From positions 1 through 32,753 of the IMG/VR virus record IMGVR_UViG_3300037245_000653: a stretch of DNA of 32,753 nucleotides, one strand, 5' to 3'. Made by a program: the position numbers and the translations under genes. The notes under the pieces were generated by a model. It saw only the letters and a list, made by a program, of their open reading frames with translations. It had not been told where the DNA came from and ran no database searches. Below are positions 3,316 through 21,680 of this stretch, one piece after another (position 1 is the first letter of the stretch; every line of letters starts with the position of its first letter). Origin of the DNA: a virus.

Positions 3316-4146
3316 ATGACTAAGAAAGTAGGAATGCAATACGTCAAAGAGTTCTCGTTCCCAGCGGAGCAGGGGTTCACGGGATCCGCAGGCAAGTCAC
3401 CCGTGAAGGGTTACATGCGGGGTGGTGCGGTGAAGGCGACGCAGGAGACTGCGAACGCTAATAAGCACCGTGCACCGAGTGTTGGCGCTTCTCGCGGCGG
3501 CACTGTCGGTGTGACCACCAAGCGTGGACCGAAGTCGAGGCGACCGAAGAACACCATGACCAAGGCTGCGCAAGGCGGCTCTGTGCACGACAAGTTGTAC
3601 GCAGCTGGCGACGAGATGGGCTACATGCGCGGTGGTGCGGTGAAGAACACCTCTGCTGAGTTCGTGCAGAAAGCAGGACCGCAAGCTTCCATGGACGAAG
3701 GTGTGCAGCCTGCACGTCGTGGTCGCACTCAAGCCGATGTCGAAGCCGGTGGCACGAAGCGACTGAAGCCGAGACTTGCACGTGGTGGTGGCGTTCACAA
3801 GACGCGCCCCTACGTCGGCAAGGCGAAGAAGAAAGGCGGACTCGCCAAGTATGCTTCGGGTGGGTCAGTCAGTCCCCCGTCGGTAGGGATGCTGGGTAAA
3901 GGTCAAGCTGCCGCTGCTGCTCGTGGAATCCGTGAGAGAGAAGAGCGTGTTCGTTCAACGGTAGATGAAGCACTGGCAGGTCAGCGAAGGTCTCAACAAG
4001 CCAGCCCACGTCCGAAGGCACGGGTGCAGGACAAGCCTGCTCCGAAGAAGGACCGCATCTATCGCGAGGACAAAGAGGGTGTGCCCACCTTCACGGACGT
4101 GCCGAAGGTAGGTAGACGCATGGGAAAGCGCGGGGCGGCAAGGTAG
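3316..4146 (+). CDS. Basic Gly-Gly-motif virion-type protein (0-frame product)
   Basis: A 276-residue, strongly basic, low-complexity protein built around repeats of the form x-x-GG-[small]-V: YMRGGAVK (twice), SRGGTVG, AQGGSVH, ARGGGVH and ASGGSVS. The same motif recurs in the large virion proteins encoded at 14950, 16935, 18268 and 22249. Near the C-terminus, DRIYREDKEGVPTFTDVP looks like the short DUF4124 type (IY..D..G...F.D.P); this is a pattern resemblance only. SD-like GGAGATAGAG precedes ATG 3316. The 0-frame stop at 4144-4146 is probably not the only end: a G GGA AAG heptamer at 4122-4128 allows a -1 shift into an open 46-codon extension. Likely a minor virion or nucleic-acid-associated protein, inferred from its basic composition and position. 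Confidence 0.65.
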   Translation: MTKKVGMQYVKEFSFPAEQGFTGSAGKSPVKGYMRGGAVKATQETANANKHRAPSVGASRGGTVGVTTKRGPKSRRPKNTMTKAAQGGSVHDKLYAAGDEMGYMRGGAVKNTSAEFVQKAGPQASMDEGVQPARRGRTQADVEAGGTKRLKPRLARGGGVHKTRPYVGKAKKKGGLAKYASGGSVSPPSVGMLGKGQAAAAARGIREREERVRSTVDEALAGQRRSQQASPRPKARVQDKPAPKKDRIYREDKEGVPTFTDVPKVGRRMGKRGAAR

Positions 4147-4162
4147 AGCGCACAGCTCGCCG
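4122..4162 (+). promoter_or_regulatory. Candidate -1 ribosomal frameshift signal 1 (GGGAAAG plus stem)
   Basis: The heptamer GGGAAAG at 4122-4128 lies in the register G GGA AAG of the 3316 gene, so both tRNAs can re-pair in the -1 frame (GGG AAA). After a 7-nt spacer a stem can form: CGGC 4136-4139 with GCCG 4159-4162, a 6-nt bulge containing most of the 0-frame stop, then GAGC 4146-4149 with GCTC 4155-4158 around a 5-nt loop. Lambda uses the same heptamer for gpG/gpGT (established). The stem was drawn by eye and no energy was computed. Confidence 0.58.
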
Positions 4163-4268
4163 GGTCGCTAACGACGTGATGGATAGACATGTGCGATCAC
4201 CGAGACCGAAGGGTCACGGCACGTCCCCGCGTGGTGGTAGAAGCAGAGTTCGAGGAGCCAAATACTAA
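4122..4268 (+). CDS. -1 frame extension of the 3316 gene (trans-frame product of about 317 aa)
   Basis: Frame -1 relative to the 3316 gene has a TAG at 4113-4115, is then open, and ends at TAA 4266-4268. That stop overlaps the next gene's ATG (TAATG). A slip on G GGA AAG (4122-4128) joins K271 to 46 further residues beginning ARGGKVERTARR and ending RGAKY. The extension continues the basic Gly-Gly motif of the parent (ARGGKV, SPRGGR), as expected of a genuine C-terminus. A free-standing 29-codon ORF from ATG 4179 (or GTG 4176) is possible, but it lacks a clear ribosome binding site and would leave the conserved-looking ARGGKV part untranslated. A sequencing indel is the main alternative. Confidence 0.6.
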   Translation, partial: GKARGGKVERTARRVANDVMDRHVRSPRPKGHGTSPRGGRSRVRGAKY

Positions 4269-14706: not shown

Positions 14707-14945
14707 TCATCGATCCGCGAGGCTTCGACAACGTGATGCAATGGGCAGACTTCATGGTGCCCCTGTTTGAGGTTGAGTCAGAGAACTTCCCCCGGCTCGA
14801 AAGAGAAGAGGATTGGCAGGACTGGGCAGCGACAATATTCGGAGATGTAGATCCGATTGGACAGGACGCACCTGATCCACACACATATGACAACTGGCGA
14901 GAGTGGGCGCAACGCCTCTTCGCTACAACGAATTTTGAAGGGTAG
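14703..14945 (+). CDS. Small Trp-rich hypothetical protein
   Basis: An 80-residue acidic protein coupled by ATGA to the nozzle-like gene. Six Trp residues are spaced along it in D/E-x-W-x-x-W-A patterns (EEDWQDWAATIF, YDNWREWAQRLF), giving two similar halves. It begins MIIDPRGFDNVMQWADFM. This composition suggests a small packing or scaffold partner of neighbouring virion proteins. No known domain recognised. The next gene begins 4 nt later at ATG 14950. Confidence 0.6.
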   Translation: MIIDPRGFDNVMQWADFMVPLFEVESENFPRLEREEDWQDWAATIFGDVDPIGQDAPDPHTYDNWREWAQRLFATTNFEG

Positions 14946-14949
14946 GAAC

Positions 14950-16935
14950 ATGCCAGCAGCACAAGGTGGACTAGCACAGATGCTCGCTCAACAGGGCGGG
15001 TCGGAAGAACTCATCGACACCGCTCGTGCAATTGAGCTGGTGCCCGGAGGTCCGGAGCTGCTCTACACCGTCGCCGCCGAACAGATGATGACGGACCAGG
15101 GTATCCCGAAGAAAGATGCCAAGAAGGTCAGGCTCTACTGCATCGGTGGGTCGGTGAAGAAGGCACGCGGTGGTGTTGCCAGCGCTGCTGAGAAGACCCG
15201 AGCTGCAGGTCGTGGTGACGACTCGATGATGCTCCACATGAGCCCGGAGGAGTACGAAGCGATCACTGCGATGTGGGGCGAGCCTGAGGTCAACCCGAAG
15301 ACCGGCATCGGTGAGTACGGCTTCCTGTCCAAGGTGTGGAAGAAGATCAAAAAGGGTGTCAAGAAAATCGTCAAGTCGCCCATCTTCCGGATGGTCGCTC
15401 CCATTGCCCTGTCGGTGTTCATGCCGGGGCTTGGGACTGCCATCGGCCTGAAGATGGGCCTGAGTGGTGCTGCAGCGTCCGTGGCGGGCAACGCTATCGT
15501 GCAGGGTGGACTGGGTGCCGTGACCGGTGGCAAGGAAGGAGCGCTCACAGGAGCCATCTCTGGGGGTCTGGGAGCTGCTGCTGGTGCGTACGGGTCGAAG
15601 GTGGGTGCAGCTCTGGGCTTGGAGGCTGGCAGCAAGACCGCGAACGTCGTCGGAAGCGCTGTGATCCGGGGTGCGGGAGCTGGGCTGACTGGAGGCGACG
15701 TCGTCGAAGGTGCGCTTACAGGTGCGCTCACCGCAGGCACCCAACCGATGAGCGAGCGGTTCTCAGCGGATGCACGAAGCGCAATGGGCATGAAGCCTGC
15801 GAGCGAGACGGCAATGGGACGGTACATAGCTGCCGAGCAAGGCCTCACAGCGCCTCCTGACCCCGGTATCGATGCAGGGGGTGACGAGTACACCCCGACC
15901 CTAGATCGTCCTGTGACGGGACAGGAGGTGCTAGCTGGAGCCGATCCGGGGCGTGTCGCCCGGACGGCAAGCCCTGCACCCGCCGCGATGGATCCACTGG
16001 CACCCACTGCTGCGGCACCTGCTGCGGCACCCACGAGAACCCAGAGCTTGATGGCTCTGGCAGGTAAGTACGCTATCCCTGCAATGACTGCTTTGGGCGC
16101 AGCGAGTTCGGGTAGCTACGAAGACGATGGACCTCCGGAGCTGCCACCCGAGTGGGGCGAGCGTCTGCCGGTCTTCAAGATGAATCGCCAGTTCCGGGGG
16201 CTCAAAGACCCATCGGATTATTTCACCTACGGTCAGGCAGGCTCACCGATGTCGGGGCAGCACCTGTTCATGGCACCGGAACCTTTCCCTGGTGACACGA
16301 GTCCTCTGGCGGCAGCTGCGGGCGCGACTGGACCTCAACCCGTGCCGCTACCTCCGGGTCGTGAAGGGATGACCCAGCGGCGTACTCTGGAGCAGCAGGG
16401 CTGGACGTACAATCCAGGGAACAACAGCATGATGCCCCCCGCTCAGGCAGCGGGTCAGCTGGGAGCAGCTCAGTCGCCGGGAGGTGAGAATTTCGTAGCA
16501 CGTGGTGGCTACCAGCGTGGTGGCGAGTTCGACTACTGGGAACAGAATCAAGATGTACCCAACGCAGCACCGGCAGTCAGTCGGGAAGGAGGTCATCATG
16601 TGCAGGGTCCGGGCTCAGGTCGATCAGACGATATCCCAGCGTACTTAAGCGACGGGGAGTATGTCATCGATGCTGAGTCCGTCTCCCTGCTGGGTGATGG
16701 TTCTGGATCTGAAGGCGCACGACGACTCGACGAGATGCGACGTGAGCTGCGCAAGCACAAGGCGGGCAAAATGAAGAAGGGTGAGTTCACTAACAAGGCG
16801 AAGAACCCCCGTGCCTACATGAACAACGTCAAGAAGCTGAGGCGTACGGTGAAGTACGAACATGGGGGTCTACACAACGTGGGTGGGACCAGTCCCGTGC
16901 CACCTAATCGCCCAGCAGCAGGAGGGAATGCCTGA
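14950..16935 (+). CDS. Large internal virion / DNA-ejection-type membrane-active protein 1
   Basis: 661 residues from ATG 14950; the frame is open to 14857, but that start would overlap the previous gene by ~90 nt. N-terminus AQGGLAQMLAQQGG, then CIGGSVKKARGGVA, both instances of the Gly-Gly motif. Residues ~125-147 form a cationic amphipathic helix (KVWKKIKKGVKKIVKSP). It is followed to about residue 270 by a glycine-zipper stretch rich in Gly and Ala, typical of proteins that insert into membranes during DNA ejection. The C-terminal part has GPGSGRSDDIPAYLSDGEYV and IDAESVSLLGDGS, a segment recurrent in phage virion proteins, then a Lys-rich tail with YEHGGLHNVGG. TGATG overlap with the next gene. 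Ejection role is inferred. Confidence 0.6.
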   Translation: MPAAQGGLAQMLAQQGGSEELIDTARAIELVPGGPELLYTVAAEQMMTDQGIPKKDAKKVRLYCIGGSVKKARGGVASAAEKTRAAGRGDDSMMLHMSPEEYEAITAMWGEPEVNPKTGIGEYGFLSKVWKKIKKGVKKIVKSPIFRMVAPIALSVFMPGLGTAIGLKMGLSGAAASVAGNAIVQGGLGAVTGGKEGALTGAISGGLGAAAGAYGSKVGAALGLEAGSKTANVVGSAVIRGAGAGLTGGDVVEGALTGALTAGTQPMSERFSADARSAMGMKPASETAMGRYIAAEQGLTAPPDPGIDAGGDEYTPTLDRPVTGQEVLAGADPGRVARTASPAPAAMDPLAPTAAAPAAAPTRTQSLMALAGKYAIPAMTALGAASSGSYEDDGPPELPPEWGERLPVFKMNRQFRGLKDPSDYFTYGQAGSPMSGQHLFMAPEPFPGDTSPLAAAAGATGPQPVPLPPGREGMTQRRTLEQQGWTYNPGNNSMMPPAQAAGQLGAAQSPGGENFVARGGYQRGGEFDYWEQNQDVPNAAPAVSREGGHHVQGPGSGRSDDIPAYLSDGEYVIDAESVSLLGDGSGSEGARRLDEMRRELRKHKAGKMKKGEFTNKAKNPRAYMNNVKKLRRTVKYEHGGLHNVGGTSPVPPNRPAAGGNA

Positions 16936-18065
16936 TGGGAAGCGTCACTGATTTCTTGTTCGAAGGGAAGCCGCCCAAGTCGGTCAACACCTACGGACAG
17001 ACCATCGAGAACGTCCCGAAGTGGATGTCAGATTACACGCAGGGTCTGATCGCGAGAGCGAACGCTGCGGCAGCTGAGCCATACATCCCCTACGGTGGTC
17101 CGCGCATCGCGCCGTTCGCTCCGGAGGAGGAAGCTGGCTTCGGACTGGCCGAAGAAAACGTCGGTGCCTACCAGCCATGGCTCGAAGCAGGTGCTGAAGG
17201 CGTACGCGGTGGACTGGATGAGTTCTCTCAAGATTACGATCCGAGAGGTGTCGCAGACCCCTACCTCGCAGGAGGTACTGAGGAATTTCCTGAAGGCGTG
17301 GATCGCTACATGGACCCGTACGTTCAGAACGTGCTCGACCGTCAAGAGAGCCTCGCTACACGCTCGCTCGAAGAGAAATTCCTACCCGGTCTGCAGAAGT
17401 CATTCACGGGTGCAGGTCAGTTCGGTTCGCGAGGTGGCGAAGGGTCCATGGAGCAGATCGGCATGAGGGGTATCAGGGATATCTCTGAAGGTCTGGAAGA
17501 ACAGCGGTTGGCGACACTATCCGGTGCCTACGGTCAGGCGGGTGAGTTGTTCGGTGCAGACCGAGCACGGCAGCTCCAAGCGGGTGAGATCAGAGGTGGT
17601 CTCGAAGAAGCAGGCGGACGACTCGGTGTTCAACAAGGACTGGGCATGCTGCAAGGAGCTGAGACAGCTGGTCGTCTGGGTGAGCAAGCGTCGAAGCTGG
17701 GCTACGGTGACGCCGCTGCGATGGAAGCAGTCGGTAAGTCTCGACGTGGCATGGGTCAAGCCAGCCTCGATCAGGCATACCAAGACTTCCTCGAACAGCG
17801 AGACCTGCCGATGGATCGCACTCGTTTCATGAGCGAGATGATTCGTGGTCTGCCATCGTCAGCGATAGGACGAACGACGCAGCGACAAGACTACGGACCG
17901 GCAGACATCTACCAGCCCTCTGGTCTGTCGCAGATCGTCGGTGCCTACGGCACGTACAAAGGTCTTACGGAAGCTGAAGGTGGGTACATCGACAACGAGA
18001 GCGGTGAGTATTTCGAACCTAACGGGTACGCACACGGGGGCTTGGCACTAGCGGGAAAGTACTAA
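16935..18065 (+). CDS. Virion-type protein with Gly-Gly C-terminus (0-frame product)
   Basis: A 376-residue protein starting in a TGATG overlap. The N-terminal third is acidic and Gly/Pro-rich (YIPYGGPRIAPFAPEEEAGF). The middle is helical with repeated Ala, Gln, Glu and Arg (RGIRDISEGLEEQRLATLSG, ARQLQAGEIRGGLEEAGGRL). The C-terminal ~40 residues include GLTEAEGGYIDNESGEYFEP and YAHGGLALAGKY. The pattern DPYVQNVLDRQE...FLPGLQ and AGQFGSRGGEG resembles a conserved but uncharacterised group of virion-associated phage proteins. The final codons read GCG GGA AAG TAC TAA, which embeds the G GGA AAG heptamer of the second frameshift candidate. Probably an internal or minor virion protein. Confidence 0.6.
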   Translation: MGSVTDFLFEGKPPKSVNTYGQTIENVPKWMSDYTQGLIARANAAAAEPYIPYGGPRIAPFAPEEEAGFGLAEENVGAYQPWLEAGAEGVRGGLDEFSQDYDPRGVADPYLAGGTEEFPEGVDRYMDPYVQNVLDRQESLATRSLEEKFLPGLQKSFTGAGQFGSRGGEGSMEQIGMRGIRDISEGLEEQRLATLSGAYGQAGELFGADRARQLQAGEIRGGLEEAGGRLGVQQGLGMLQGAETAGRLGEQASKLGYGDAAAMEAVGKSRRGMGQASLDQAYQDFLEQRDLPMDRTRFMSEMIRGLPSSAIGRTTQRQDYGPADIYQPSGLSQIVGAYGTYKGLTEAEGGYIDNESGEYFEPNGYAHGGLALAGKY

Positions 18066-18098
18066 GCGCTGAGCCCTATGCATTAGGTGGCTTGGCGC
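18053..18098 (+). promoter_or_regulatory. Candidate -1 ribosomal frameshift signal 2 (GGGAAAG, 6-nt spacer, 10-bp stem)
   Basis: GGGAAAG at 18053-18059 lies in the 0-frame register G GGA AAG. The spacer TACTAA (18060-18065) contains the 0-frame stop. Immediately after it GCGCTGAGCC (18066-18075) can pair with GGCTTGGCGC (18089-18098), giving 10 bp with two G-U pairs around a 13-nt loop. An alternative inner CCTA/TAGG hairpin (18075-18078 with 18084-18087) is mutually exclusive with part of it. Slippery heptamer, 5-9 nt spacer and stable stem is the canonical layout of -1 frameshift elements. Pairing was found by eye. Confidence 0.68.
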
Positions 18099-18268
18099 AG
18101 GCAGCAAAAGCTGGATGGCAAAAGGTGAAGGGGTGGTGGCGTGGACTCACTGGGCAAAACACGGGGCGAGAGAATCCGGGGTTCGCCCGAGCTGCTAACG
18201 AGCTGTACGAGAAATGTGATATGCGCAGCCGAGCACGAGGTGGCGTTCGGATTGAGGATGAAGACTGA
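18053..18268 (+). CDS. -1 frame extension of the 16935 gene (trans-frame product of about 444 aa)
   Basis: After TAA 18020-18022 the -1 frame is open to TGA 18266-18268, and that stop overlaps the next gene's ATG (TGATG). A slip at 18053-18059 fuses K375 to 69 residues starting VLSAEPYALGGLAQAAKAGW and ending RGGVRIEDED. The extension has a Trp-rich basic helix (QKVKGWWRGL), a helix ANELYEKCDM, and two more Gly-Gly motifs (YALGGLAQ, RARGGVRI). There is no ATG in this frame before 18218, too late to explain most of the protein-like sequence by independent initiation. This explains the otherwise empty 202-base interval in a genome where genes overlap. Sequencing error is the alternative. Confidence 0.65.
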   Translation, partial: GKVLSAEPYALGGLAQAAKAGWQKVKGWWRGLTGQNTGRENPGFARAANELYEKCDMRSRARGGVRIEDED

Positions 18269-19584
18269 TGGCTAATTATCAAGCAGGTGGGCTGGCAGCA
18301 GCAACCGGTGTAGATCCTGACGAACTGGGCGACCCCTCCATGGTCGAAGTTCCCGGTGCACTGGAAGCAGCGACGACGAGTGAGAGACAACCCTCTAACT
18401 TGCCTACGCAGTCCACGCGGGCAGGCAAAAAAATGACCAGCTCGATTGCAATGAAACGGTTGGAAGAAGCACGCCAAACTTTGATGGACCGACGCGATAA
18501 AATCGAAGCTGATAAGAGTGGTCAGTGGCTTGCTCTTGCACAGGGCATGCTGGCACCTACTCGTACAGGTGGGTTCGGTGAGTCCGTGGGCGTTGCTGCA
18601 GGTCTGGTAGGAGTCGCTCGCTCAAAGAAGCGAGAGCAGCTGACTAAGATTGAAACAGATCTCCTCGACTCTGAGACGAAGCAGCAACAGATTGCTCTGC
18701 AATCACGTGCCCGTCTGGGTTCAAGGTCAACCGTGTACCACCCGGATGATGTCGCTGAGTTCCCAGACAGCCCAGAGCAGTGGCGGCATATCGAGAAACA
18801 AACCATCGTGCACAACGATGGAACGACGGAGCACATCTTCACGGGAACGGATACCGGAGAACTTCTGCAGGTAGTATCCTCCGCGAATCCCATCACCGTA
18901 CGTGAGAGAGACGCGGCTAAGGTTGCGGGAACCCTTGAGACTCGACGTGCCCAGCACGACATCGATCAGGGACTGATCGCAACCATTGCGCAAGACAAGC
19001 TGCGTGATGCGCGAGCGATCTTTGCAGATATAGAGACCGGCGGGCTCAAAGCGGGCATCGCACGTATGGGTGAGTTCCTCAACATTAGAATCGCAGACGA
19101 CGCAGATCTCAGAGTGGTCCGAAGGCTCATCGGTGATGAGGTTCTCAACCAGTTGTCACGCTTGACGGGTACGAAGACCGACTTCGAGTACAAGAAGATC
19201 GAGTCGCTCAACGCGAGCCCAGATGCGAGTCAGGAAGCTAACCTACGCATCATCGATGAAATGCTTAATCGTTACGACAACATCATCAATATCGGAGAGC
19301 GAGCAGCTCTCGCCCAAGCTAAGAATCCCGATGACGATCTGTCAGTATTCAGGTACCGAGAGTACCGTCAGGAAGAGTCTGCGAGAAAAGAAATGGAGGC
19401 GATGGCAGGGCAGGCAGCGGCTAGGGTTCCAACTCCTGAGCACAACGACATTCTGGTTGAGAATTTTGATCTCAACAATCCAAACAACGGCAGGCTGATC
19501 GAGTTCTATCGGACTCACTACGGTTGGCCTCCAGTCGATCCTGATGTGCTCTCTGAGCTGCGCAAGAAGGGGTTTAAAGACTGA
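18268..19584 (+). CDS. Virion-type helical protein (putative internal protein)
   Basis: A 438-residue protein whose ATG overlaps the stop of the preceding -1 frame extension (TGATG). The N-terminus has the Gly-Gly motif (ANYQAGGLAAATG), followed by a long helical, charged region with SQWLALAQGMLAPTRTGGFGESVG-like Gly turns near residues 90-110 and a coiled-coil segment (KKREQLTKIETDLLDSETKQQQ). The C-terminal half has HYGWPPVDPDVLSELRKKGF at the end. No catalytic motif recognised. Its place between ejection-type proteins suggests an internal or ejection component. TGATG coupling to 19584. The A7 run at 18428-18434 is not in a usable frameshift register. Confidence 0.58.
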   Translation: MANYQAGGLAAATGVDPDELGDPSMVEVPGALEAATTSERQPSNLPTQSTRAGKKMTSSIAMKRLEEARQTLMDRRDKIEADKSGQWLALAQGMLAPTRTGGFGESVGVAAGLVGVARSKKREQLTKIETDLLDSETKQQQIALQSRARLGSRSTVYHPDDVAEFPDSPEQWRHIEKQTIVHNDGTTEHIFTGTDTGELLQVVSSANPITVRERDAAKVAGTLETRRAQHDIDQGLIATIAQDKLRDARAIFADIETGGLKAGIARMGEFLNIRIADDADLRVVRRLIGDEVLNQLSRLTGTKTDFEYKKIESLNASPDASQEANLRIIDEMLNRYDNIINIGERAALAQAKNPDDDLSVFRYREYRQEESARKEMEAMAGQAAARVPTPEHNDILVENFDLNNPNNGRLIEFYRTHYGWPPVDPDVLSELRKKGFKD

Positions 19585-21680
19585 TGGCTGAAACAAATTA
19601 CACGACGGAAGAAGACCTCCTCCGAATGCAGGCTGAGATGCAGGCGAAAGACCAAGCGCTGATGGCACAAGGGTACGCACCGGGAGAAACTCCACCCGAA
19701 GAAGCGTTACTGGCACAAGCTGAGCAGCTCCCCGAGCCAGACATGTCGTTCGCCAACGATCCGTTTACGGATCCGTTTGCGGATGCCCCCGGTCTCGCTG
19801 ATCCTTTCGCTGACGCTGGAGAAGAACTAGCAAACCCACTAGCTCAGTTCCCGAGTGAGTTTCCTGATGAGCCGGGAACGTCACGTGCATCGCGAGAGAT
19901 GGGTGAGATGTTCGTGCCGCCGATGCTTGGTGGTGACGCTCCGACGGTGGGACCGGGACGTACGACACCCGAGACGGGTGGTGGTGTTGGTGCCACGCTG
20001 ACCACGGGGCAGCAAGCAGCGATGGCAACAGCTGCGATGACGATGACCGATCCAGAAGAGATCGCGAAGATGCTGAGGCAGTTCCCTGAGATTGGCATCA
20101 CCTATGCACCTGATGGTGCGATCATCGCAACCAACAACGAGACCGGTGCGCGTGGACTCGTCAACCGTCCTGGCGCGAGCGGCATGGACCTGATGCAGCT
20201 GCTGGGACTCGGTGCAGCGTTCTCACCTGCAGGCAAGATTGCATCGCTAGGTGTGAAGACAGCGCTGCCTGCAGTAGCCAGTGCAACGATGCGTAAGCAG
20301 CTGGAGAAAGCAGCTGTTCGTCGAGCAGGGTTTCAGGCTGCAGGCACCTTTGGTGCCACTCAAGCCCTGATTGAGGCGGGTCACGAAGTGGCAGGTGGCG
20401 ACTTCGATCCAGAAGACATCGCGTTCACTGCAGCAGCGGGTAAGGTGGGTGAGCACCTCGCGAAGCCACTGGCGAACGTCGCTACCAAAACCAAGGAGCT
20501 GATGGGGAAGGTTGCTGACGTTGTACCTAAAGGTGTCCAGCAAGCACTGGATTATGCAGAGTCAACGGGGCGGAAAATCTACACCTCCGATGCTCTCTCG
20601 CAGTACATAACTCCTATCCAAAATATCTTCATAAAAACGATTGAACGTATCCCGATCACAGGTATCGGTCGCGCACGAATCAGACAGAAAGCAGCGAGAA
20701 CAGATGCACTCATCGATATCGCTAACAAGTACGGCATCAACATCGAGACTGAGCTGGGTCAAGACATCGCTGACAATTTCATTACGCGGATGATCAAGCA
20801 GCGCTTCTGGGGTAAGAACAAGGAGATCATGGACCCGGCGAACTGGCCTTCAGCAGTCACGCGACCGCATGAACATCGACAAGCTGCGGCAAAGGCGCAG
20901 GAGCTACTTGAACGTGCATACGTGAAGGAGTCTGAACAGGTTGTTGACGCTGCGATAGCTAAGCAACTGCGAGAAGGCAACCTTGACGATGAGATCGTCG
21001 AGCGCGTTCTAGATCAAGGCGTGCCCAAACGTATCGATGATCTGTTTAACAAGCTGATGCCCGAAGGGAAGCAAGCAGTGAAGCAGCGCTTCCTCACCAA
21101 GGGACTGGAGAAAGCAGGTTGGACTCCTGACGCTCCGCAGATCGCTGATCCGGATGGCTTCGTGAAGTACCTCAGCACTCCTAAGAACAAGAAGATGCTG
21201 AAGGTCTTCTTCGACGAGGGTGAACAAGAGCTGCTCGAAGGGGCTCGTGAGTATATGCGGATCACTGCGTTAGCTGCCCAGACAGGTAAGGGTTCGGGCA
21301 TGGTTGCTGCGATGGGTGGTGGCGCTGCTGTCGGACTCGCTGTCCTGAATGGTTTGTGGGGGGTAGCTGCAGCCTCGGCACTCGCAGGGCGAGTCATTCA
21401 AGGTCAGACGATCCGTGACCTCCTTTTGAAGCTGACGTATGCCAAAGGAGACCCTGCAAAAGCTCAGCTCATCATGCAGGAGCTTCGCCCTCTGGTCGTC
21501 GCTGCGGAGAACCAGTACTTCGAAAGTGGTGGTCCCCCTGAGTTACCTGAGATTGAGTTCAGCAAGGACATGATGAAAGACTTGGGCGACTACGGTATGC
21601 AGTACCTTCGTACTCTGGGCGAGCGAGGTATGGACAAGTTCGAGGACGTGACTGGCGAATTGAGCAGGATGTTGGAATGA
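19584..21680 (+). CDS. Large internal virion / ejection-type protein 2
   Basis: A 698-residue protein. The N-terminal ~130 residues are acidic and disordered, with repeated DPF units (NDPFTDPFADAPGLADPFAD). Residues ~210-290 contain Gly/Ala-rich hydrophobic stretches (LLGLGAAFSPAGKIASLGVK). A long helical basic/acidic region follows (about 300-560). Near residue 570-600 there is a strong hydrophobic Gly/Ala segment (GSGMVAAMGGGAAVGLAVL, GVAAASALAGRVIQG) likely to enter membranes. The C-terminus is helical. This build resembles phage inner-core proteins that form a trans-envelope conduit during DNA ejection. No lytic transglycosylase motif was found. Overlaps the terminase gene by 4 nt (ATGA). 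Confidence 0.58.
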   Translation: MAETNYTTEEDLLRMQAEMQAKDQALMAQGYAPGETPPEEALLAQAEQLPEPDMSFANDPFTDPFADAPGLADPFADAGEELANPLAQFPSEFPDEPGTSRASREMGEMFVPPMLGGDAPTVGPGRTTPETGGGVGATLTTGQQAAMATAAMTMTDPEEIAKMLRQFPEIGITYAPDGAIIATNNETGARGLVNRPGASGMDLMQLLGLGAAFSPAGKIASLGVKTALPAVASATMRKQLEKAAVRRAGFQAAGTFGATQALIEAGHEVAGGDFDPEDIAFTAAAGKVGEHLAKPLANVATKTKELMGKVADVVPKGVQQALDYAESTGRKIYTSDALSQYITPIQNIFIKTIERIPITGIGRARIRQKAARTDALIDIANKYGINIETELGQDIADNFITRMIKQRFWGKNKEIMDPANWPSAVTRPHEHRQAAAKAQELLERAYVKESEQVVDAAIAKQLREGNLDDEIVERVLDQGVPKRIDDLFNKLMPEGKQAVKQRFLTKGLEKAGWTPDAPQIADPDGFVKYLSTPKNKKMLKVFFDEGEQELLEGAREYMRITALAAQTGKGSGMVAAMGGGAAVGLAVLNGLWGVAAASALAGRVIQGQTIRDLLLKLTYAKGDPAKAQLIMQELRPLVVAAENQYFESGGPPELPEIEFSKDMMKDLGDYGMQYLRTLGERGMDKFEDVTGELSRMLE

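Follow-up and report, generated by a model that had tools for sequence, protein, structure and literature searches.

A podovirus DNA-ejection protein gene that very probably ends in a programmed −1 ribosomal frameshift site

The end of a DNA-ejection protein gene in a viral DNA of 32,753 nucleotides (IMG/VR record IMGVR_UViG_3300037245_000653; the whole stretch analysed is called the window here) is very probably a programmed −1 ribosomal frameshift site, as judged from the sequence and its comparison with related phages. Most ribosomes would stop at 18063 and release a protein of 376 residues. A fraction would slip one base back on G_GGA_AAG, with tRNA-Gly and tRNA-Lys re-pairing with GGG AAA, and in the window phage this slippage would be aided by a hairpin 6 nt downstream. 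The slipped ribosomes would then read 69 codons to 18268 and yield an ejection protein of 444 residues, the added domain of which would comprise a YAxGGLA repeat, a probable helix with Trp residues, and an acidic end. We infer the slippage in vivo and its rate, as well as the presence of both protein lengths in the virion or the ejection apparatus. The features concerned are as follows.

16935 to 18065, plus strand: zero-frame gene encoding the predicted short isoform, a 376-aa open reading frame assigned to the podovirus DNA-ejection (internal virion) protein family
18036 to 18040, plus strand: GGGGG, which may act as a weak internal stimulator of the Shine-Dalgarno type; 12 nt separate it from the heptamer
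18053 to 18059, plus strand: slippery heptamer G_GGA_AAG, in phase, with its first base at a third codon position
18060 to 18268, plus strand: −1-frame extension, 69 codons from 18059 plus TGA
18063 to 18065, plus strand: zero-frame stop TAA, one codon past the heptamer
18066 to 18098, plus strand: hairpin with a 10-bp stem (18066-18075 with 18089-18098), folding at −19.2 kcal/mol, 6 nt past the heptamer
18266 to 18270, plus strand: TGATG, made up of the extension stop and the ATG of the next gene, with the A at 18268 belonging to both
18268 to 19584, plus strand: next gene, 438 aa, a second candidate internal virion protein

The sequence and its translations agree with an earlier sequence-only reading in giving GCG GGA AAG TAC TAA as the 3' end of the gene that begins at 16935, and in the −1 frame 69 codons follow the re-paired GGG AAA up to the TGA at 18266-18268. 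The gap left by the zero frame (18066-18267) is 202 bases long and is filled by the extension, and the joined product has the 444 residues claimed for it; the junction peptide of the predicted long isoform would be AGKVLSAEPYALGGLAQAAK. Two Gly-Gly motifs lie within the extension, LGGLA and RARGGV, also as read before. The Trp-rich helix that had been proposed there does contain three Trp residues, but the helix itself is predicted at low confidence, the predicted structure (pLDDT 53 for the extension and 40 for the core) being too low in quality for fold comparison. Across the 23 structural-module genes of the window there are just three in-phase X_XXY_YYZ heptamers. Two of these, both GGGAAAG, lie at most 8 codons from the end of a gene, and each opens a long −1 frame (48 and 71 codons) that ends on the start codon of the next gene.

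The other of these two gene-end sites belongs to the gene at 3316-4146, near whose end GGGAAAG stands in phase at 4122. Its −1 frame gives a 48-residue extension (window 3316-4268) that ends on the following ATG as TAATG; the site is kept in the relative L001 (L067, with the extension 96% identical) and not in L008.

Comparison of relatives supports the C-terminally extended isoform that had been predicted to arise by −1 frameshifting. GGGAAAG in the same register, followed by a homologous −1 extension, was found in L001, L002, and L008, with core identities to the window gene of 91%, 86%, and 75%, respectively, and in the more distant L061 (63%), L063 (66%), and L071/L072 (~64%). The heptamer stands at phase 2 in six of the six genomes compared, and its register in L071 is identical. 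The zero-frame stop comes one codon past the heptamer in the window, L001, L002, and L061; in L008, L063, and L071 it comes later, after about 11 or 12 codons. Within the extension, G-K, LGGLA, W, L-G, Y, C, G, and E-D-x-D are invariant across the GGGAAAG group. The GGA codon of the heptamer is unchanged in five divergent lineages at high synonymous divergence; by comparison, a single codon is used in all five lineages at only 2 of 31 other invariant Gly columns. Since the window and six different phages have the same heptamer and open −1 frame, a sequencing error at the heptamer is excluded, and the −1 frame is both present and constrained in relatives, two points on which the earlier proposal could have failed. 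Two scans of bacterial and archaeal genomes returned no relatives, and a comparison of the extension with deposited phages gave no match.

The extension is under selection at the protein level, much as the core is. In the three closest pairs its dN/dS is 0.16 to 0.21, compared with 0.17 to 0.20 for the core, and in the other unsaturated pairs it is 0.19 to 0.29; table values of 0.0 reflect saturated pS and were excluded. Among the variable columns of the extension, 24 of 40 are at third positions of the −1 frame (p = 0.0005).

By way of its homologues, the 16935 gene belongs to the podovirus DNA-ejection protein family (PHROG 4287). The profile phrog_4287, "DNA ejection protein," is matched by 25 of 31 aligned family members (best E value, 8.8e-23), and the window protein searched alone did not reach the threshold E value of 0.01 against it and had no family match. 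Upstream, the 13141 gene matches podovirus nozzle proteins in PDB, and the 14857 gene has weak tape-measure profile matches over about 36 to 95 residues only; the gene for a small terminase subunit lies at 21677. This gene order and content point to a podovirus.

In at least eight relatives the counterpart of the extension is the in-frame C terminus of the same protein (L074/L075, L076, L077, L081, L082, L108/L109, L110, and L117/L118), with fused tails such as GGLARAAG...WARSLYPD...VGVAGG...LKHKQD. The fused and the shifted groups differ in the later half of the domain, so that homology rests on position, the Y-x-x-GG-L motif, and a W-A-x-S-L stretch. In two further arrangements the domain would be entered through −1 slippage: at C_CCA_AAA in L078/L079 (two identical contigs) and, further in, at G_GGA_AAA in L083 (one contig). 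The latter may be an error or a recent mutation, because L083 has one base fewer than L108, its fused relative, apparently close to a run of A. In a tree of the core protein all shifted and fused forms make up one clade (support, 97/99), in which the GGGAAAG forms fall outside a clade (97/96) of fused, CCCAAAA, and GGGAAAA forms; the tree gives no order between shift and fusion as the older state. The domain is missing within the 97/99 clade in L119 only, and the outgroups also are without it. In L119 (at 5794) the extension is absent altogether and the zero-frame stop overlaps the next start.

These relatives bear on how the extension would be reached. It could be a separate small gene, with a start of its own or with reinitiation after the TAA, and coupling of this kind is frequent among phage genes. 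The −1 frame does have downstream starts, an ATG in L001 and in L002, whereas the window (at 18092) and L061 have only a TTG, which falls within LGGLA. Upstream of the heptamer, back to the preceding −1-frame stop, there is no ATG, GTG, or TTG in any of the six genomes, and in L008 and L063 no −1-frame start codon appears until past the conserved LGGLA motif; the L071 sequence likewise has none ahead of it. The in-frame start near 18090 that would have told against a shift is thus not conserved, and because three relatives are without a start before LGGLA, independent initiation cannot account for the conserved first part of the extension. With the counterpart domain also C-terminal in the same protein in the fused relatives, we give a separate gene very little chance. 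The existence of the fused form in sister phages suggests another origin, in which an indel, real or artefactual, broke a formerly fused gene and the −1 frame is now decaying or reflects a sequencing error; L083 apparently lies one base away from its fused relative. Against this stand the same heptamer and open frame in seven distinct genomes and the strong purifying selection on the extension, and for the window we regard an indel as highly improbable.

A reading that keeps the frameshift but not its product is that slippage serves chiefly to feed ribosomes to the start of the next gene, with the longer protein a by-product. The TGATG overlap, which is found in L001, L002, L061, and L063 as well as in the window (five of the six genomes examined), is in its favor, but the extension is conserved as a protein sequence, and the counterpart is retained in fused phages, in which the next gene begins past the stop; we consider this reading unlikely. 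Slippage of the RNA polymerase rather than the ribosome would likewise yield −1-frame products. Polymerase slippage usually needs runs of about nine A or T, however, and the longest run in GGGAAAG is three (five G in some relatives), which leaves transcriptional slippage with hardly any probability at all. Programmed ribosomal frameshifting, the reading that we prefer, has points against it too: the fused relatives show that some members of the group can do without a two-length arrangement, the hairpin has a z-score of only about −1 in the window, and L008 and L063 have either no such hairpin or a different one.

The stem pairs at 10 of 10 positions (one U-G and one G-U included) and lies 6 nt after the heptamer, as had been claimed, but calling it a textbook stem was too strong, because it is kept in four phages only and rests on one compensatory pair. 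All ten pairs form in the window, L001, L002, and L061. Synonymous changes (GAG/GAA with GGC/GGT) make one of them G-C in two of these phages and A-U in the other two, and another varies between U-G and U-A; the A-U pair is common to L001 and L061, although the window is the nearer relative of L001. Covariation across the four sequences was not significant against shuffling (78 of 500), nor was suppression at synonymous sites over the stem. The folding energy in the window is ordinary for its composition (z-score, −0.88 to −1.3), with shuffled sequences folding nearly as well, and the phages with the conserved stem range from −1.2 to −2.9. Since low folding z-scores occur elsewhere in these genes too, for example in L117 at 4986 and in L081 at codon 9, stem strength was not taken as decisive evidence. 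Canonical bacterial −1 sites have a conserved RNA structure at about 5 to 9 nt. In L071 a 10-bp stem lies 14 nt past the heptamer; the stem is weaker in L008, and L063 has none of note. The hairpin is probably a stimulator in the lineage of the window and no general requirement. Shine-Dalgarno-like stimulators of −1 shifts are placed 9 to 14 nt upstream (PMC5009743), a range into which the GGGGG of the window falls; the spacing of this element differs in L008, L061, and L063, and it is not a conserved stimulator.

The heptamer of the window is that of lambda gpG/gpGT. G_GGA_AAG is listed as highly shift-prone in Escherichia coli, and the mechanism itself is ordinary for phages, with lambda G/GT, T7/T3 10A/10B, and the A2 capsid as examples (PMC5009743). 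As in lambda and other tail assembly chaperones, the predicted shift lies near the 3' end of the gene and would produce a C-terminally extended minor form (PMC5009743). In the lambda case, however, a chaperone gene of long-tailed phages precedes the tape measure, whereas here an ejection-family gene follows the nozzle gene, with the terminase beyond, and there is no family match between the two. T7/T3 10A/10B and the A2 capsid are similar in gaining a C-terminal domain through a −1 shift late in a virion protein gene (PMC5009743); theirs is the major capsid protein, with an Ig-like domain in T3 and A2, in contrast to an ejection protein with a motif-repeat extension that is probably helical. 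In its place after the nozzle and before the terminase, and in the match of its relatives to phrog_4287, the gene is like T7 gp14-gp16, but a review of ejection proteins mentions no frameshift or two-length form (PMC8954989), and the comparison with solved ejection proteins gave no sequence match. A literature search, incomplete in its coverage, found no published frameshift in an ejection-protein gene. Ejection proteins, a poorly understood part of the virions of short-tailed phages, would thereby join the few phage proteins for which frameshifting appears to give products of two lengths. The prediction is that each virion would hold two forms of one ejection protein, which bears on the construction of ejection assemblies whose copy numbers are uncertain. 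In automatic annotation the 69-residue domain would be lost. The relatives display naturally occurring fused, shifted, and missing states.

Some fused relatives also carry slippery heptamers. In L074 (at 6104) and L117 (at 5864) a very stable hairpin (−26.6 kcal/mol; z-score, about −4) lies only a few nucleotides past an in-phase GGGAAAA, at the same place, and a ribosome shifting to the −1 frame there would terminate within 8 to 9 residues and so shorten the protein. C_CCA_AAA is in phase, at the same PK dipeptide, in L077 (6023), L082 (6083), L108 (5764), L110 (5766), and L078 (6086); from it the −1 frame leads to the long form in L078 and ends after 5 codons in the other four. The heptamers in fused relatives may be due to chance, since in-phase heptamers also occur near the gene start in some relatives (at EGK and VPK motifs). 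In dnaX, a heptamer and a hairpin give two lengths of one protein, tau and gamma. The fused L074 and L117 suggest a similar arrangement in keeping an in-phase GGGAAAA and hairpin where a −1 shift would truncate; the predicted shift in the window, unlike that in dnaX, extends the protein. It is possible, if rather doubtful, that the podovirus ejection proteins of this group come in two lengths set by ribosomal frameshifting and that the polarity of the switch flips in evolution, such that a −1 shift extends the protein in the lineage of the window and truncates it in fused relatives, for which the candidates are L074 and L117 (GGGAAAA with a strong hairpin) and L077, L082, L108, and L110 (CCCAAAA). 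Were this so, selection would act on the two-length mixture and not on which frame encodes which form.

The YAxGGLA motif is repeated across the shift site, as YAHGGLALAGK at the end of the short form and as YALGGLAQAAK at the start of the extension, and the next gene begins with NYQAGGLA, which echoes the motif on both sides of the site. Because the motif recurs at these three places, we suggest that the extension may provide the ejection complex with another docking site, a second one. More broadly, Y-x-x-GG-[LAVS] recurs in neighbouring structural proteins (window 3316-4146 and 14857-19584), often near their ends, and in some of them it exceeds the shuffled expectation, with 3 occurrences versus 0.16 in the product of 3316-4146.
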